This document shows, piece after piece, positions 8,276-15,067 of a DNA stretch of 40,157 bases; position 1 is the stretch's first letter, and each line of letters starts with the position of its first letter. The position numbers and the translations under genes are program-made. Below the pieces are notes generated by a model. It saw only the letters and a list, made by a program, of their open reading frames with translations. It was not told the DNA's origin and did not search any database. Source of the DNA: Armatimonadota bacterium (GTDB taxonomy: Bacteria; Armatimonadota; Hebobacteria; GCA-020354555; CP070648); contig DATLAK010000024.1 of the NCBI GenBank assembly GCA_035527535.1, positions 1 through 40,157 on the forward strand. The letters are read 5' to 3'.

Positions 8276-10174
8276 CTACCCGGGAGCGGGGTGGCGCACG
8301 ATAGGTCCGCAGGCCGCGTAAACCTCGGCGGCGGCGCGGGCGATACCCGCGCCCGTCAGGCCGAGTGACTCCAGCAGCTCCGCGCGAGGCCCGTGCTCGA
8401 TGAAGCGATCGGGAATGCCCACGCGCCGCACCGGCGCCGCGACGCCGTGCGCCTGCAGCAGCTCCAGCACCGCGCTGCCGAATCCCCCTTGCAGCGCGTT
8501 TTCCTCGATGGTGACCAGGCCGCCGCCGCGTCGCGCGAGGTCGAGGATCAGCTTCTCGTCGAGCGGCTTGACGAAGCGCGCGTCCACGACCGCAGCGGCG
8601 ACCCCTTGCTGCGCCAGCAGCTCCGCCGCCTCTAACGCCGGCGCGACCATGCTCCCGACCGCCAGCAGGGCAAGGTCTTCCCCCTCGCGCAGCATCTGCC
8701 CGGTGCCGGCGGCAATGGGGGCCGAGGCTGGCTCCGGGCCGGTGAGCGCTGTCGCCGCGCGCGGATAGCGGATGGCGGCAGGGCCGTCACCGGCGAGGGC
8801 GGTGCGCAGCATGGCGGCAAGCTGATCGCCGTCGCGCGGGGCCATGACGGTCATGTTCGGCAAGTGCCGCAGGTAGCTCAGATCGAAGAGGCCGTGATGG
8901 GTGGGGCCGTCCTCCCCCACCAGGCCGGCGCGATCGACCGCCAGCACCACCGGCAAGCCCTGCAAGCAGACATCGTGCAGGAGCTGGTCGTAGGCGCGCT
9001 GCAGGAAGGTCGAATAGACCGCCACCACCGGCCGCAGCCCCGCCGCCGCCAGCCCCGCGGCAAAGGTCACCGCGTGGCCCTCCGCCATGGCGACGTCGAA
9101 GAAGCGATCCGGGAACTGCTGAAGGAACGGCGCCAGCCCGGTGCCGTCGGGCATGGCGGCGGTGATGGCGACGATGCGGGGGTCTGCCGCGGCCAGGCGC
9201 ACCAGCTCCGCGCCGAACAGCGACGTGAAGTGGCAGCCGCCGGCGGGCGCGGCGGGCTCACCGGATTCGATGTCGAAGGGGGCGGTGCGGTGGAAGCGAC
9301 TGGCGTCGCGCTCGGCGGGGTCATAGCCCTTCCCCTTGGTGGTAACCGCGTGCAGCAGCACCGGGCCCTTGAGGGTGCGGGCGTGACGGAGCGTCTCGAT
9401 CAGCGCCTCCAGGTCGTGGCCGTCAACCGGCCCCAGGTACGTGAACCCCAGCTCCTCGAACAGTATCCCCGGCACCAGCAGGTGCTTGACGCCGGCCTTG
9501 AGCTTCTCCACCGCCTCCAGCACCGCGGCGCCGCGCGGCAGGCGTTGCAGCGCCGCCTCGAAGTTCTCCTTGGCGCGCAGGTAGTGCGGCTCCGCCCGCA
9601 CGCGCCCCAGGTAGCGGGCGAGGGCGCCGACGTTGCGCGAGATGGACATCTGGTTGTCGTTGAGGACCACGATGAGGTCGCGCCCCAGGTGCCCGGCGTG
9701 GTTGAGGGCCTCGAACGCCAGGCCGCCGGTCATGGCGCCGTCGCCGATGACCGCCACCACCGCGTGGTCTTGATGTCTGAGGTCGCGGGCGATCGCCGCG
9801 CCCAGCGCCGCCGAGATCGAAGTGCTGCCGTGGCCGGTGTCGAAGCAGTCGTGTGGGCTCTCGGCCCGGCGGGGAAAGCCGGACATCCCGCCGCGCTGGC
9901 GCAGGGTGGGCAGGCCGGCGGCGCGCCCGGTCAGCAGCTTGTGGGTGTAGCACTGGTGGCCGACGTCCCAGAGGATCTTGTCGCGCGGGCTGTCGAGCTC
10001 GTAGTGCAGGGCGATGGTGAGCTCGACCACACCCAGGTTGGCGGCGAGATGGCCGCCGGTGCGCGAGACCGCGGCGATCAGGCGTCCGCGAATCTCGTCC
10101 GCCAGCTCAACCAACTGCGCCCGCGACAGGGGCTTGAGGTCGGCGGGACCGGTGATGGTGCTCAACAGTGACAT
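8276..10174 (-). CDS. dxs: 1-Deoxy-D-xylulose-5-phosphate synthase
   Basis: Dxs condenses pyruvate and glyceraldehyde 3-phosphate with thiamine diphosphate, the first step of the MEP isoprenoid pathway, and also feeds thiamine and pyridoxal synthesis. The 632-residue product has [16 protein letters not shown] near residue 45, [15 protein letters not shown], the ThDP signature from [10 protein letters not shown] to NDNQMSIS (about 145-180), the transketolase-like [15 protein letters not shown] segment around 420 and a C-terminal domain beginning [13 protein letters not shown]. It is the last gene of the efp-accB-pilin-accC-nusB-xseA-xseB run, 36 bases after xseB; that spacer contains a palindrome. 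The xseB-dxs order is common in bacteria, supporting the operon. Confidence 0.97.
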
Positions 10175-10213: not shown

Positions 10214-10453
10214 CGCTTCTTCTTGGTCCTCGTTCGCGAGCTTGGCGATGCGTTGCTCGGCGGCCTGCAGCCGCTGCTGGCAGTAGCGCCCCAGGGCGGT
10301 CGCCTCCTCGTACAGGCGCAGCGAATCCTCCAGCGATTCCTCGCCGCTTTCGAGGCGCTCGACGATCTGCTCCAGGCGCGCCAGCGCATCCTCGAAGGAC
10401 TTGGGCTTGCCGCGCTCGCCGCCGGCATCGGTGGTTACTTTTTTTCGCCTCAT
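10211..10453 (-). CDS. xseB: Exodeoxyribonuclease VII small subunit
   Basis: XseB combines with XseA to make exonuclease VII, which degrades single-stranded DNA from both ends. The 80-residue product has the defining SFEDALARLEQIVERLE and EESLEDSLRLYEEATAL helices (about residues 19-52), followed by QQRLQAAEQRI. I chose ATG 10453, because it overlaps the xseA stop in an ATGA; an upstream in-frame start would add 22 residues. The stop codon is contributed by a palindromic repeat, so the original C-terminus may have been slightly different. Confidence 0.95.
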   Translation of the reverse strand: MRRKKVTTDAGGERGKPKSFEDALARLEQIVERLESGEESLEDSLRLYEEATALGRYCQQRLQAAEQRIAKLANEDQEEA

Positions 10454-11724
10454 GCTTCCCCCTGTGTGGCGGAGCCGGCATCGGTCTTGCGCGGCGTCAC
10501 CCGCTCGACCTCGCACCATGCCGAGCCATCGCTAACCACCACCTCCGCCTCGGCGCCCGGGGCTAGCTGCGAGACCGAGCGCACCACCCGCCCCTGCGGC
10601 GGCAGCCGCATCACGCAGTAACCCCGCCCCAGCACCCGCAGCGGATCCAATGCCCGCGCCCGCTCCCCTTGGGCCGCCACGCGATCGGCGCGGCGGTTGA
10701 TCCCGTCGGCCGCCGCGACGCGGAGGCGCCGCAGCGCCTCATCGCTGCGTTGGCGCGGTTCCGCGAGCATGGCCGCCGGGGTCGCCAGCACGCGGCGTCC
10801 GCGCCAGGTTTCGATTTCCCGTCGCCGCCGTTCCCCCGCGCGCATCGCCGCCCGTCGCGCGCGTTGCGCCAACCGCAGCAGGTGGGCGGAGAGCTCCGCG
10901 GCGTCCGGGGTCAGCATCTCCGCCGCCGCCGACGGCGTCGGCGCGCGCACGTCGGCGACGAAGTCGGCGATGGTGAAATCAGTCTCGTGCCCCACCGCGC
11001 TCACCACCGGCAGCGGCGCCGCGGCGATGGCGCGCGCCACCGCCTCTTCGTTGAACGGCCACAGCTCCTCCAGCGACCCCCCGCCGCGCGCGAGCACGAT
11101 CACCTCCACCTGCGCCAGCGCGGCCGCCTGCGCCAGCGCGCGCACCAACGCGGGCGCCGCCGCCGGCCCCGACACCGCCGCCGGGACGAGCTCCATGCGC
11201 ACCCCCGGCCACCTCCGGCGCGCGATGACCGAGAAGTCGTGAAACACCGCCCCGTCGGCGGAGGTGATAACGGCGATGCGCCGGGGGAAGGTCGGCAGCG
11301 GGCGCTTGCGCGCGGGGTCGAAGAGGCCCTGCGCGCGCAGCTTCTCTTTGAGCTGCTCGAAGCGCAGGTGGAGCGAGCCGACGCCGTCGGCGATGACCTC
11401 GGTGACATAGAGCTGGTAGTGCCCGGCGCGCTCGAAGACGGAGACCGAGCCGTGCACCAGCACGCGGACGCCGTTCTGCGGCAGGCAAGCAAGCCGCTGC
11501 GCGTGGTCGCTGAAGGCCACACACCGCAACTGGCTCGCCTCGTCCTTGAGCGTGAAGTAGATGTGGCCCGAGGAATGGGCGACGCAGTTGCTGACCTCGC
11601 CCCGCACCCAGACCTCGCGCAGCCCCTGGTCGCGCTCGAGCAGCGTGCGCACGTAGCGCGTGAGCTGGCGCACGCTGAAGACGAAGCGGTCGGTGGGGGC
11701 GGCGGAATGCGCGAGCTCGCTCAT
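10450..11724 (-). CDS. xseA: Exodeoxyribonuclease VII large subunit
   Basis: The catalytic subunit of exonuclease VII has 424 residues. The N-terminal OB-fold covers about residues 14-110 (RYVRTLLERD, VWVRGEVSNC, SGHIYFTLKDEASQLRCV). The catalytic region carries RIAVITSADGAVFHDF, the ARGGGSLEELWPFNEE motif and PVVSAVGHETDFTIADFVAD followed by RAPTPSAAAE. A coiled-coil-prone arginine-rich segment and the C-terminal GRGYCVM block follow. It overlaps nusB and xseB by 4 bases on each side, so translation is probably coupled. Exonuclease VII would act beside the ADD-type enzyme also encoded in this window. Confidence 0.97.
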   Translation of the reverse strand: MSELAHSAAPTDRFVFSVRQLTRYVRTLLERDQGLREVWVRGEVSNCVAHSSGHIYFTLKDEASQLRCVAFSDHAQRLACLPQNGVRVLVHGSVSVFERAGHYQLYVTEVIADGVGSLHLRFEQLKEKLRAQGLFDPARKRPLPTFPRRIAVITSADGAVFHDFSVIARRRWPGVRMELVPAAVSGPAAAPALVRALAQAAALAQVEVIVLARGGGSLEELWPFNEEAVARAIAAAPLPVVSAVGHETDFTIADFVADVRAPTPSAAAEMLTPDAAELSAHLLRLAQRARRAAMRAGERRRREIETWRGRRVLATPAAMLAEPRQRSDEALRRLRVAAADGINRRADRVAAQGERARALDPLRVLGRGYCVMRLPPQGRVVRSVSQLAPGAEAEVVVSDGSAWCEVERVTPRKTDAGSATQGEA

Positions 11725-12218
11725 GCCTCCATCTCCCCGGGGGGCGCCTGCTCGCGATCCTCGGATTCGGGATTGGGGACCTGGGGCTGGGCGGCAGCCA
11801 CCGGCTCGGCGACGACGCCCTGCTCGAGGTCGCGCAGCAGGCTGCCCAGCACGCCGTTGACGAACTTGCCGGACTCGGCGGTACTGTACTTCTTGGCGAG
11901 CTCCACCGCCTCGTCAATCGAGACGCTGGGCGGGATGTCGGGCAGGTGGAGGATCTCGAACACCGCGAGGCGCAGGACATTGCGGTCAATGCTCGCCATG
12001 CGGTCGAGGCTCCAGTCCTCGGCGTAGCGCGCGATGAGGGGGTCAATCGTCTGGATGTTGGCGACCGCGCCGCGCAGGAGCTGGCAGGCGAAGGCGAGGC
12101 CCTCGGGCTGCAGGATCCGATGGGCCTCGGCGAGGGCGTCCTCGAGGTCGGTCTTGCCGACGTCCACCTGGTAGAGCCACTGCAGGGCCTGCTCGCGCGC
12201 GGCGCGCCGTGTCCTCAT
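11721..12218 (-). CDS. nusB: Transcription antitermination factor NusB
   Basis: NusB binds NusE (S10) and boxA RNA during rRNA transcription antitermination. The 165-residue protein starts RTRRAAREQALQWLYQVD, the classic Arg-rich first helix, and contains PLIARYAEDWSLDRMASIDRNVLRLAVFEI and a DEAVELAKKYSTAESGKFVNGVLG segment, both diagnostic. About 25 extra C-terminal residues (acidic, Pro/Gln/Glu-rich) go beyond the core fold. It begins 7 bases after accC and overlaps xseA by 4 bases. Confidence 0.96.
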   Translation of the reverse strand: MRTRRAAREQALQWLYQVDVGKTDLEDALAEAHRILQPEGLAFACQLLRGAVANIQTIDPLIARYAEDWSLDRMASIDRNVLRLAVFEILHLPDIPPSVSIDEAVELAKKYSTAESGKFVNGVLGSLLRDLEQGVVAEPVAAAQPQVPNPESEDREQAPPGEMEA

Positions 12219-12225
12219 GGTAGGC

Positions 12226-13578
12226 CTACTGCAACCCCATGCGCCGACGAATGAAATCGGTGCAGGTCTCGCCCTTGCGGAAGAAGGCGTTGGTCAGCAC
12301 TTCGCGGTGGAAGGGGATGGTGGTCTTGAGGCCGTCAATGCGGAACTCGTCGAGCGCGCGCAGCGCGCGGGCGATGGCCTCGCGGCGGTCGCGCCCCCAG
12401 ACGATGAGCTTGGCCAGCAGGGGGTCGTAGTATGAGGGCACGTGATAGCCCGGGTAGAGATGCGTGTCCACGCGCACCCCGGGGCCGCCCGGCAGGGTCA
12501 GGCCGTTGACGGCGCCGGCGGCGGGGGCGAAGTCGCAGAGGGGGTCTTCGGCGGTGATGCGGCATTCGATGGCGTGGCCCCGGGCCTGGATGTCCTTCTG
12601 CGAGTAGGGCAGCTTCTCGCCCGCGGCCAGGCGGATCTGGTCCTTGACCAGGTCGAGGCCGGTGACCGCCTCGGTCACGGGGTGCTCAACCTGGATGCGG
12701 GCGTTCATCTCCAGGAAATAGAACTTGCCGTCGGAGTCGAGCAAGAACTCGACGGTGCCGGCGTTGGCATAGCCGACGGCTTTGGCGGCGCGCAGGGCGG
12801 CTTCGCTCATGCGGTGGCGCAAGGAGGGATTGAGGGCGGTGGAGGGGGACTCCTCCAGCAGCTTCTGGTGGCGCGAGGTCTGGATGGAGCACTCGCGCTC
12901 GCCCACGTGCACGATGTTGCCGCGCTTGTCGGCAAGGATCTGGAACTCGATGTGGCGCGGCTCCTCCAGGAAGCGCTCGAGGTAGACCTCGGGGCGACCG
13001 AAAGCGGCCTGCGCCTCGGCGCGGGCGATGGGCAGGGTGCGCAGCAGGTCGTCGTCGTCGTGGACGATGCGGATGCCGCGCCCGCCCCCGCCGGCGGCGG
13101 CCTTGATCATCATCGGGTAGCGGTGCTTGGAGGCGAGCTTGAGGGCGTCCTGGTCGTTGTAAACGACCGCGCCGTCCTCCGGGGGGATGACGGGCACCCC
13201 GGCGCCGCGCATCACCTGCTTGACCTGGGCCTTGTCCTGCAAGGCCTCGATGGTGGCGGCGCTGGGACCGATGAAGGTGAGCTTGCACGCGTCACAGTTC
13301 TCGGCCAGGGCGGCGGTTTCGGACAGGTTGCCGTAGCCGGGGTGCACGGCGTCGGCGCCGGTGATGAGGGCGGCCTGGATGATATTGGGTAGATTGAGGT
13401 AGCTGTCGCGGTTGGGGGGCGGGCCGATGCACACGGCCTCGTCCGCCAGGCGCACGTGCAGCGAGCCGGCGTCCGCCTGGGAATAGACGGCGACGGTGCG
13501 CAGGCCCATCTCGCGGCAGGCGCGGATCACGCGCACCGCGATCTCGCCGCGGTTGGCGATAAGGATCTTCTTGAACAC
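12226..13578 (-). CDS. accC: Acetyl-CoA carboxylase biotin carboxylase subunit
   Basis: AccC uses ATP and bicarbonate to carboxylate biotin on the carrier protein, the first half-reaction of malonyl-CoA synthesis. The 450-residue product is complete: N-terminal FKKILIANRGEIAVRVIRAC, the ATP-grasp glycine loop KAAAGGGGRGIRIV (about 159-172), the EFQILADKRGN strand and the catalytic MNARIQVEHPVTE (about 290-302), then FRKGETCTDFIRRRMG at the end. GTG 13578 is the likely start, preceded by GGCGGAGA. It lies downstream of an AccB-like gene, with a prepilin-like gene in between. The accA and accD genes are not in the window. Confidence 0.97.
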   Translation of the reverse strand: MFKKILIANRGEIAVRVIRACREMGLRTVAVYSQADAGSLHVRLADEAVCIGPPPNRDSYLNLPNIIQAALITGADAVHPGYGNLSETAALAENCDACKLTFIGPSAATIEALQDKAQVKQVMRGAGVPVIPPEDGAVVYNDQDALKLASKHRYPMMIKAAAGGGGRGIRIVHDDDDLLRTLPIARAEAQAAFGRPEVYLERFLEEPRHIEFQILADKRGNIVHVGERECSIQTSRHQKLLEESPSTALNPSLRHRMSEAALRAAKAVGYANAGTVEFLLDSDGKFYFLEMNARIQVEHPVTEAVTGLDLVKDQIRLAAGEKLPYSQKDIQARGHAIECRITAEDPLCDFAPAAGAVNGLTLPGGPGVRVDTHLYPGYHVPSYYDPLLAKLIVWGRDRREAIARALRALDEFRIDGLKTTIPFHREVLTNAFFRKGETCTDFIRRRMGLQ

Positions 13579-13631: not shown

Positions 13632-14018
13632 TTACAGCCCTTCGTGCCCCGGGGTGGTACAGTAAACGGTGCCCGTCTGCGGGTCGTAAACGTAGGGATT
13701 GTGGGAGCTGGGGCAGGAGGTCACGCCGATCCGCAGGTCCTCAAGCGACTTGGGCGGCGCCTCGCTGGAGATACGATGGGCGGCGACGGCCTGGCGGATG
13801 CCGCGCAGGTTCTCTTGGCACTCCACCTTGCGCGCTTGCTCGATAGCGGCGCCCGCGGGCGAGAGCCCCTCACCGCTGGGGCCGACGGCGCCCCCGCCGC
13901 CGGGCCCCACCGGGCCGCGCTGACCGTACACCATGTACACCACCAGAATGATGATGACCGTCACCACCAGCAGCTCGATCAAGGTGAGAAAGCCCGCCTC
14001 AGAGCGATTCCGTTTCAA
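13632..14018 (-). CDS. Prepilin-like protein with collagen-like segment
   Basis: This 128-residue protein of unknown role has a type IV prepilin N-terminus: a short basic leader (MKRNRSEAG) and then FLTLIELLVVTVIIILVVYM, a 20-residue hydrophobic helix starting after Gly9. In ordinary pilins Glu is the fifth mature residue; here it is the sixth (one extra Leu). Residues about 33-55 are GPVGPGGGG-type, Gly/Pro-rich and collagen-like, followed by a helix with two Cys-containing segments (CQENLRGIRQAV; TSCPSSHNPYVYDP). The C-terminal VYDPQTG motif resembles those of small pseudopilins. TTG 14018 has a good AAGGAGC site and overlaps the accB end by 20 bases. It is therefore an operon member, but with no obvious link to fatty acid synthesis. 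Confidence 0.8.
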   Translation of the reverse strand: MKRNRSEAGFLTLIELLVVTVIIILVVYMVYGQRGPVGPGGGGAVGPSGEGLSPAGAAIEQARKVECQENLRGIRQAVAAHRISSEAPPKSLEDLRIGVTSCPSSHNPYVYDPQTGTVYCTTPGHEGL

Positions 14019-14487
14019 CTTCCGCTCCTTCGGTCGCCGCCAGCGGCTCGATCAGCATCAGCAGTTGTCCGTACTCGACCGGCGCCCCGTCGGACGCCAG
14101 CACCTCGCGCACGATGCCGGCGGCCGGCGCCACAATGTCGTTGGGAACCCGCATCGCCTCGATCGCCCCGATCACCTGGCCGCGGGAGACGCTGTCGCCC
14201 GGCGCCACCCGCTGCCCGTGCTCGCCGGCGGCGCGGAAGGTGCCTACCAACGCCGCCGCTACCGGCAGCAGGGCCGGCCCCTGGGCGCTCGCGCCCGGCG
14301 CCTCCGCCGCGGACGGCTGCCCCGACCGGTCGGGGTGCTGCGCCCCTGCCGCATCCTCGTCCACGGGGTCGCGCTTGAGGCTGACCTTGAAGTCCGGGAA
14401 CTCGATTGCGAGCTCACTTACTCCCGATTCGCGCATGACGGCGATGAGCTCCCGCACGCGTTCCAGTTGCAGATTGGGCTTCGCCAT
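13999..14487 (-). CDS. accB: AccB-like protein lacking the biotinylated lysine
   Basis: In sequence and position this is a biotin carboxyl carrier protein: 162 residues, N-terminal VRELIAVMRESGVSELAIEF helix region, a Pro/Ala-rich linker (about 41-75), then the biotinyl domain VGTFRAAGEHG to PVEYGQLLMLIEP. The hallmark EAMKM hairpin reads EAMRV, so Arg113 (codon CGG) replaces the Lys that carries biotin. Changing AAG or AAA to CGG needs at least two base changes, so a single sequencing error is unlikely. As it stands the protein should not be biotinylated; plant BADC proteins are a known case of such non-biotinylated relatives that regulate the enzyme. A 16-bp palindrome in the linker codes for HPDRSGQP. 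ATG 14487 lies 16 bases after efp. The gene name is by homology only. Confidence 0.88.
   Translation of the reverse strand: MAKPNLQLERVRELIAVMRESGVSELAIEFPDFKVSLKRDPVDEDAAGAQHPDRSGQPSAAEAPGASAQGPALLPVAAALVGTFRAAGEHGQRVAPGDSVSRGQVIGAIEAMRVPNDIVAPAAGIVREVLASDGAPVEYGQLLMLIEPLAATEGAEVETESL
14320..14335. repeat. Perfect CCCCGACC/GGTCGGGG palindrome inside accB
   Basis: A 16-bp perfect palindrome lies in the linker-coding part of the AccB-like gene, in frame. Related copies are at 121-136, 443-458, 24221-24238 and 33381-33398. Confidence 0.85.
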
Positions 14488-14503: not shown

Positions 14504-15067
14504 TCAGGCGGAGATGCGCTCCAGGTACTGATCGCTGCGAGTGTCCACGCGAATGAGATCACCCGGATTCAGGAACAGTGGAACTTCCACCATCGCCCCC
14601 GTCTCCAGGGTCGCAGGCTTGGAGCCCCCGGAGGCGGTGTTGCCGCGTAAGCCGGGGTCGGTGTGGGCGATCCGCAGTTCCACCGAGTCGGGCAACTCGA
14701 CGCCGATGAGGCGGTCGCCGTGCATCGCCACCGCCACCTCCAGGCCCTCCTTCAGGTAGCGGGCCCGATCACCGATCTGCCCATCGCTGAGCGTGATCTG
14801 GTCGTAGGTATCCAGGTCCATGAGCACGTAGTCGGACCCGGAGCGGTAAAGATACTGCATGGGCCTGCGCTCGACGTGGGCGGCTTCCATGCGCTCGCCC
14901 GCGCGGAAGGTGCGATCGAAGACATTGCCGGTGCGCATATTGCGCAGCTTGGTGCGGACGAAGGCGCCGCCCTTGCCCGGCTTGACATGCTGGAATTCGG
15001 CGATCTGGAAGACCTCACCCTCAAGCTCGATGGTGAGACCGCGCTTGAAATCAGCGGTGGATATCAT
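14504..15067 (-). CDS. efp: Translation elongation factor P
   Basis: EF-P binds between the P and E sites and relieves ribosome stalling at proline stretches. The 187-residue length is standard for its three beta domains. The N-terminal KOW-like domain has FKRGLTIELEGEVFQI and the tip loop HVKPGKGGAFVRTKL; Lys32 is the position that is modified or contacts tRNA in other bacteria. The central VERRPMQYLY segment and the C-terminal LEISGD-region equivalent (LFLNPGDLIRVDTRSDQYLERI) are clear. I chose ATG 15067, since the upstream in-frame extension overlaps the predicted promoter. It heads the eight-gene run. No epmA/earP/ymfI modifier gene is nearby. Confidence 0.97.
   Translation of the reverse strand: MISTADFKRGLTIELEGEVFQIAEFQHVKPGKGGAFVRTKLRNMRTGNVFDRTFRAGERMEAAHVERRPMQYLYRSGSDYVLMDLDTYDQITLSDGQIGDRARYLKEGLEVAVAMHGDRLIGVELPDSVELRIAHTDPGLRGNTASGGSKPATLETGAMVEVPLFLNPGDLIRVDTRSDQYLERISA

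Follow-up and report, generated by a model that had tools for sequence, protein, structure and literature searches.

The window analysed here is a stretch of 40,157 nucleotides from the genome of an Armatimonadota bacterium, and it carries on its minus strand an operon for part of acetyl-CoA carboxylase, the enzyme that makes malonyl-CoA in the first committed step of fatty acid synthesis. The order of genes is efp (elongation factor P, 14504-15067), an AccB homologue that we call accB' (13999-14487), a small pseudopilin-like open reading frame (13632-14018), accC (biotin carboxylase, 12226-13578), nusB (11721-12218), xseA (10450-11724) and then dxs (8276-10174). Most of these were identified from Pfam and NCBIfam matches; for accB' the open reading frame, its translation, profile matches and relatives were used together, and for the small reading frame, a comparison of relatives. 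A preliminary description of this DNA had placed a complete accC in the same operon as accB', and this is what we find: the gene lies on the same strand with one open reading frame between, and its 450-residue product scores 652.8 bits with the NCBIfam accC model (cut-off 626.5). The small reading frame that separates the two genes has no Pfam or NCBIfam match. Pseudopilin-like frames are recognised at this place in 43 of 66 Armatimonadota loci examined, several with the C-terminal signature YDPxTGxVxCxxPGHE, and in none of 14 Eremiobacterota loci checked.

The product of accB' is a homologue of the biotin carboxyl carrier protein (AccB or BCCP), 162 residues long, and its end reads GQVIGAIEAMRVPNDIVAP. 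Pfam Biotin_lipoyl (PF00364) matches residues 80-146 with 53.9 bits (cut-off 22.1). The biotinyl lysine of the E-x-M-K motif is absent; as the preliminary description had it, EAMK is replaced by EAMR, and the codon concerned (CGG, 14149-14151 on the minus strand, Arg113) is two changes from a lysine codon. That description left room for biotinylation at a shifted lysine instead. The lysines of the protein are at residues 3, 34 and 38, with none after residue 38; the barrel matched by Pfam is thus free of lysine, and a shifted acceptor is ruled out. The thumb loop also differs, with FRAAGEHGQRVAPGD replacing FYRxPxPxxxxFVEVGD, so that the conserved Tyr and Pro of the thumb are missing. With the NCBIfam equivalog model for BCCP (TIGR00531, cut-off 115.2) the protein scores 77.1 bits, and the EAMK-bearing paralogue in the same genome, at 93.7 bits, likewise falls under the cut-off. 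The lysine-less AccB homologue is real.

An AlphaFold2 model of the protein (mean pLDDT 81) was used to delimit its parts. The N-terminal module, residues 5-38 (14374-14475, minus strand), is predicted to form a helix (5-21) and a beta-hairpin (25-29/34-38); by analogy with the biotin carboxylase of Chloroflexus (BC1), it is the presumed contact with biotin carboxylase. Residues 74-148 (14044-14268, minus strand) are predicted to fold into the lysine-free beta barrel of biotinyl type, with a pLDDT of about 89-98 per block of ten over residues 71-150. The best solved match from Foldseek is 1bdo, the biotinyl domain of E. coli BCCP, with a TM-score of 0.85 by target length; 4hr7 is also matched.

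If this protein cannot carry biotin, a true carrier should exist elsewhere, as was predicted beforehand. The assembly (3.24 Mb in 192 contigs, 95.75% complete, 1.56% contaminated) contains three Biotin_lipoyl matches: the window protein, a GcvH-like protein and a second AccB on contig C177 with EAMKVFNEIN, whose gene lies directly upstream of the homoserine dehydrogenase gene (hom). The predicted carrier therefore exists in the same genome. Its origin from a contaminating contig is unlikely, given that in the tree both AccB copies cluster with their respective counterparts from a relative in the same family (G001). A search for BirA, the ligase that such a carrier would need, gave a BirA-like protein: there are two BPL/LplA/LipB matches, one of which, on contig C67, has GRGQRGRRW and KWPND, which we take to be biotin ligase motifs. 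The rest of the set is present once. There is one pair of carboxyltransferase matches (AccD/AccA, on contig C76) and one biotin carboxylase C-terminal domain, which makes the accC of the window the sole biotin carboxylase gene found; a stronger CPSase_L_D2 match on contig C37 was considered as a second biotin carboxylase and proved to be the large chain of carbamoyl-phosphate synthase.

The arrangement can be followed through the phylum. A tblastn search over 81 genomes (our own and 80 relatives) found AccB in 79; the match regions were fetched, and each copy was placed by its neighbour genes into class A (usually hom-linked) or class B (accC-linked). Two fragment rows and four rows that were not AccB were left out before counting, and for twelve rows that had no neighbours the sequence decided the class (ten A, two B), in agreement with the tree. 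Class A has the lysine in 72 of 72 genomes. In 62 of these copies the carrier gene is followed directly by hom, an odd neighbour for accB; the ten others are those assigned by sequence and tree. A readable class B copy is present in 74 of the 81 genomes, with Lys in 26 and another residue in 48 (Gly 26, Arg 10, His 4, Thr 3, Asp 2, Ser 2, Asn 1). The preliminary description had suggested comparing relatives at this codon, and the pattern recurs, here and in at least one further phylum (below); because the column is non-Lys in 48 of the 74 accC-linked copies, the window's included, a sequencing error is an unlikely source of it. Class B is present in 32 families, of which 23 include non-Lys copies. 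Both classes were found in 67 genomes, 45 of them with a lysine-less B. The motifs of the 26 Lys-bearing copies are ESMK (11), EAMK (8), ESLK (4), EAIK, ETIK and EVMK (1 each). The nearest relative, G001, still has Lys in B (EVMK), and the Arg of the window thus arose within its family; a family of the same class as the window genome (f2) has His at this column, and family f3 has EAMK. Our gene is, on this sequence comparison, a member of an AccB paralogue group, mostly lysine-less, that occupies the usual accB seat of an efp-accB-accC operon.

Genomes with one class alone were looked at individually. Seven had B and no A in the first set, and a profile search recovered A in four of these, with EAMK in G013, G074 and G075; in the fourth, G068 (63% complete), which has a lysine-less B, the A copy ends at the contig end before its Lys. 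Class A was not found by this search in G011, G041 and G073, among which G041 (80% complete) is the one with a lysine-less B (Arg). The seven genomes in which no B could be read were searched for AccC. Three gave no usable AccC match: those in G010 and G072 were weak and resembled carbamoyl-phosphate synthase, and G062 had none. In G005 AccC is present and the contig ends just upstream, in G004 it is in pieces on a short contig, and in G012 it is partial. In G019 AccC is full-length, the 1.5 kb fetched upstream of it contain no B, and two further AccC fragments lie elsewhere.

A wider sample came from AccC itself. In many AccC proteins of the Armatimonadota, an additional residue immediately precedes the conserved RHQK (CSIQTSRHQK, compared with CSMQRRHQK in E. 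coli), and a DNA pattern for this insertion gave at least 120 loci in the genome collection. Among the matches listed, the titles are nearly all Armatimonadota; the others are two Abditibacteriota, one Berkelbacteria, one Methanoregulaceae, one Candidatus Eremiobacterota and nine given as 'bacterium'. A readable B is present in 88 of these loci, and in 32 the piece fetched has no B open reading frame. Lys is lacking in 76 of the 88 (Gly in 63), which is not a frequency, since at least 120 loci are listed and they were chosen by an AccC motif; some belong to the same species as members of the 81-genome set, and the two sets are not additive. The 12 rows with Lys include L205 (the Berkelbacteria title), which is not a typical AccB, and L303, the Eremiobacterota locus. 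Among the listed loci, many with Fimbriimonadia and Chthonomonas titles share a motif close to ALGLANDV. In eight genomes behind the listed loci, including CP021423, CP021424, CP054189 and AP024673, class A with EAMK is present in all eight.

The Eremiobacterota locus led to 38 genomes from the same phylum (Vulcanimicrobiota in the NCBI taxonomy). Here the operon reads accB'-accC-nusB, and the accC-linked B has Lys in 3 of 31 copies and another residue in 28 (Gly 17, Asn 8, Ser 2, Arg 1). Class A has Lys in 29 of 29 copies, these being the loci fetched as best matches; the remaining nine genomes, with weaker best matches, were left unsorted.

How the two classes are related was addressed with trees. 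A first AccB tree, of Armatimonadota and outgroups, set B apart with a support of 92. In an unrooted tree of both phyla, built with the Lys column removed from 63 B rows, 61 A copies and nine outgroup AccBs (E. coli and records from a plasmid collection), B of both phyla falls on one side of a single branch (SH-aLRT 98), with A and the outgroups on the other. We read the divergence of A and B as an old split, although these trees have long branches and few columns, and long-branch attraction could account for part of the unity of B. When the Lys or non-Lys state of B is mapped on a tree of AccC from 63 genomes, it needs 12 changes (11-13 in bootstraps), 10 of them forced by well-supported branches. 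Lys can be taken as ancestral, because class A and all nine outgroups have it, and if its loss is also irreversible, the same tree requires 15 losses. Class B is under purifying selection: in pairwise comparisons the median dN/dS of B is 0.12 over 24 pairs (22 lysine-less; in some, both sequences come from a single species present in two collections), and that of A is 0.16 over 18 pairs.

Column entropies indicate where constraint was lost. The means are 2.48 bits in A and 2.68 in B for the N-terminal module, where conservation is moderate only in both classes, and 1.79 and 2.03 for the barrel. At the EAMK hairpin the mean rises from 0.06 to 1.70, compared with little change elsewhere, so that the relaxation in B concerns mainly the biotin hairpin and the thumb. 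Columns 107-111, in the thumb, consist mainly of gaps in class B. Measured from the VG that precedes the thumb, the Lys column is at a distance of 34 in 56 of 69 measured A copies, as counted also on the E. coli AccB sequence, and 29 in the commonest form of B (31 of 71). Other parts of B are well kept: G100, G160, V99, V157 and L163 are invariant or nearly so in the alignment, and VEYGQxL near the C terminus is conserved more in B than in A. This pattern fits a protein kept for binding, not for carrying. Two changes were considered as possible partners of the lysine loss. Shortening of the thumb has no clear link with it (29 short and 19 full among lysine-less copies, 11 short and 14 full among Lys-bearing ones, with one unmeasured), and the AccC insertion CSIQTxRHQK has no correspondence with it by eye.

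Two known systems help to interpret class B. In plants, according to PMC11926652, the BADC (biotin attachment domain-containing) proteins of heteromeric acetyl-CoA carboxylase are without the biotinylation motif, interact with BCCP and biotin carboxylase and act as glue for the complex, and they are called unique to the plant enzyme. Like BADC, the lysine-less proteins of class B are BCCP homologues found alongside a true BCCP and a biotin carboxylase, and accB' has both sequence features, in that it lacks the motif and its genome has a BCCP with it (the EAMK copy on C177, which groups with that of G001). Class B differs in being bacterial, in standing beside accC in an operon and in its many separate lysine changes, and the likeness is one of features, with a putative binding of B to biotin carboxylase and BCCP. 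The other system is the fused biotin carboxylase and BCCP of Chloroflexus aurantiacus, BC1. According to PMC11077971, the N-terminal BCCP hairpins, and not the biotinyl core, hold the biotin carboxylase tetramer and support activity. The likeness is a BCCP-type N-terminal hairpin with a structural role in biotin carboxylase assembly; the difference is that in BC1 the same chain carries biotin (Lys553), whereas here the structural and carrier roles would be on two proteins. Ordinary bacterial AccB, as in E. coli and TIGR00531, resembles class B in predicted fold, N-terminal module, operon position and size, and differs in having the acceptor lysine, in a thumb about five residues longer than in many B copies and in its model score, as given above. 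In searches of the open-licence PMC literature we found no bacterial lysine-less AccB.

Taken with the hairpin role in BC1 and the glue role of BADC, these results favour a mixed AccC scaffold in which both A and B chains take part and biotin is carried on A, which we consider rather likely. Class B would most likely belong to the biotin carboxylase complex as a subunit that carries no biotin, a functional parallel of plant BADC; if so, a bacterial protein works like BADC. It is probably made together with AccC, and would most likely join the AccC complex, biotin-free, with the N-terminal helix, the hairpin and the barrel as its contacts. The carrier role would fall to the class A AccB encoded beside hom, presumably biotinylated by BirA, and B could serve in assembly or as a spacer, raising or tuning AccC activity and setting the number of biotin arms per complex. 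We infer the binding to AccC, which the preliminary description also proposed, from the place of the gene in the operon, the conservation seen in the N-terminal module and the predicted barrel fold, and we infer also the mixed assembly and its effect on activity. Because B keeps Lys in 26 of the 74 Armatimonadota copies, it may still be a carrier in those lineages. Also weighing against this reading are the moderate conservation of the N-terminal module, the variation at AccC position 37 (below), the lysine-less B of G041 and G068 beside no A or a truncated one, and the full-length AccC of G019 with no B in the upstream piece. In a broader account, which we hold to be evenly poised, two AccB proteins would predate the parting of Armatimonadota and Eremiobacterota (Vulcanimicrobiota), the copy in the accC operon having become a structural non-carrier, with many lysine losses since, and the second gene the carrier; BADC would then exemplify a general design, a two-part AccB scaffold, of which bacteria evolved their own version separately.

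Other roles for class B can be weighed against the same evidence. The sequence features would be identical if B were an inhibitor, displacing the biotinylated carrier from the AccC complex and so lowering fatty acid synthesis; co-transcription with accC would then fix the ratio of the two, and for BADC itself both views, assembly and inhibition, are put forward according to PMC11926652. However, B is retained beside accC, in the usual place of the carrier gene, in two phyla, which is better suited to an obligate subunit than to an optional brake, and we regard inhibition as unlikely. AccB of E. coli is reported to autoregulate its own expression, and B could conceivably be a specialised form of this, a regulator of acc genes with its N-terminal part kept and its gene within the acc operon. 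No DNA-binding family was matched in Pfam or NCBIfam, and constraint on the whole barrel and VEYGQxL would be needless for a protein acting through its N terminus, so that we find this role improbable.

The many residues found at the Lys column raise the matter of whether B has a function at all. Fast divergence, with eight letters including Lys at that position, is what a drifting, decaying relic would also give, yet the dN/dS of B is as low as that of A, open frames and operon position are kept over 32 families and a second phylum, and the invariant and near-invariant columns remain; a pseudogene is rejected on dN/dS and retention, and a relic in general is very improbable. Another reading would have the Lys-bearing B proteins be carriers like A, and the lysine-less state be a late and nearly neutral loss of a redundant arm, in an ordinary BCCP partner whose biotin is dispensable. 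The lysine in B of the nearest relative and of family f3 agrees with this, as does its presence in 26 of the 74 Armatimonadota copies. The Lys-bearing copies are nevertheless often off-motif, ESMK being commoner than EAMK, and some lysine-less clades have conserved motifs of their own (ALGLANDVES, EALGIRNPVRS), and we give this reading little credence. The non-carrying subunit remains the preferred reading, and it has practical consequences. Annotation by homology would name class B genes as biotin carriers despite the missing acceptor lysine. The many separate lysine losses are natural replicates, the proteins are small and can be expressed in E. coli, and Lys-bearing relatives are at hand for comparison; thus, whether B assembles or inhibits can be put to experiment.

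Some further observations concern AccC. In a check covering 21 E. coli positions, K116, K159, H209, E211, K238, E276, E288, N290, R292 and R338, which we take to be active-site positions, are identical in the window protein and in 63 of 63 AccC proteins. At position 37 (E. coli numbering), a possible equivalent, judged by residue number, of an interface residue in Chloroflexus BC1, 28 of the 63 have Ala and 17 have Arg. The extra residue before RHQK may serve as a marker of the phylum, the matches listed for its DNA pattern being almost all from Armatimonadota. The contigs of L205 (Candidatus Berkelbacteria) and L271 (Methanoregulaceae archaeon) carry the Armatimonadota-type AccC motif, and it is possible that both were misbinned.
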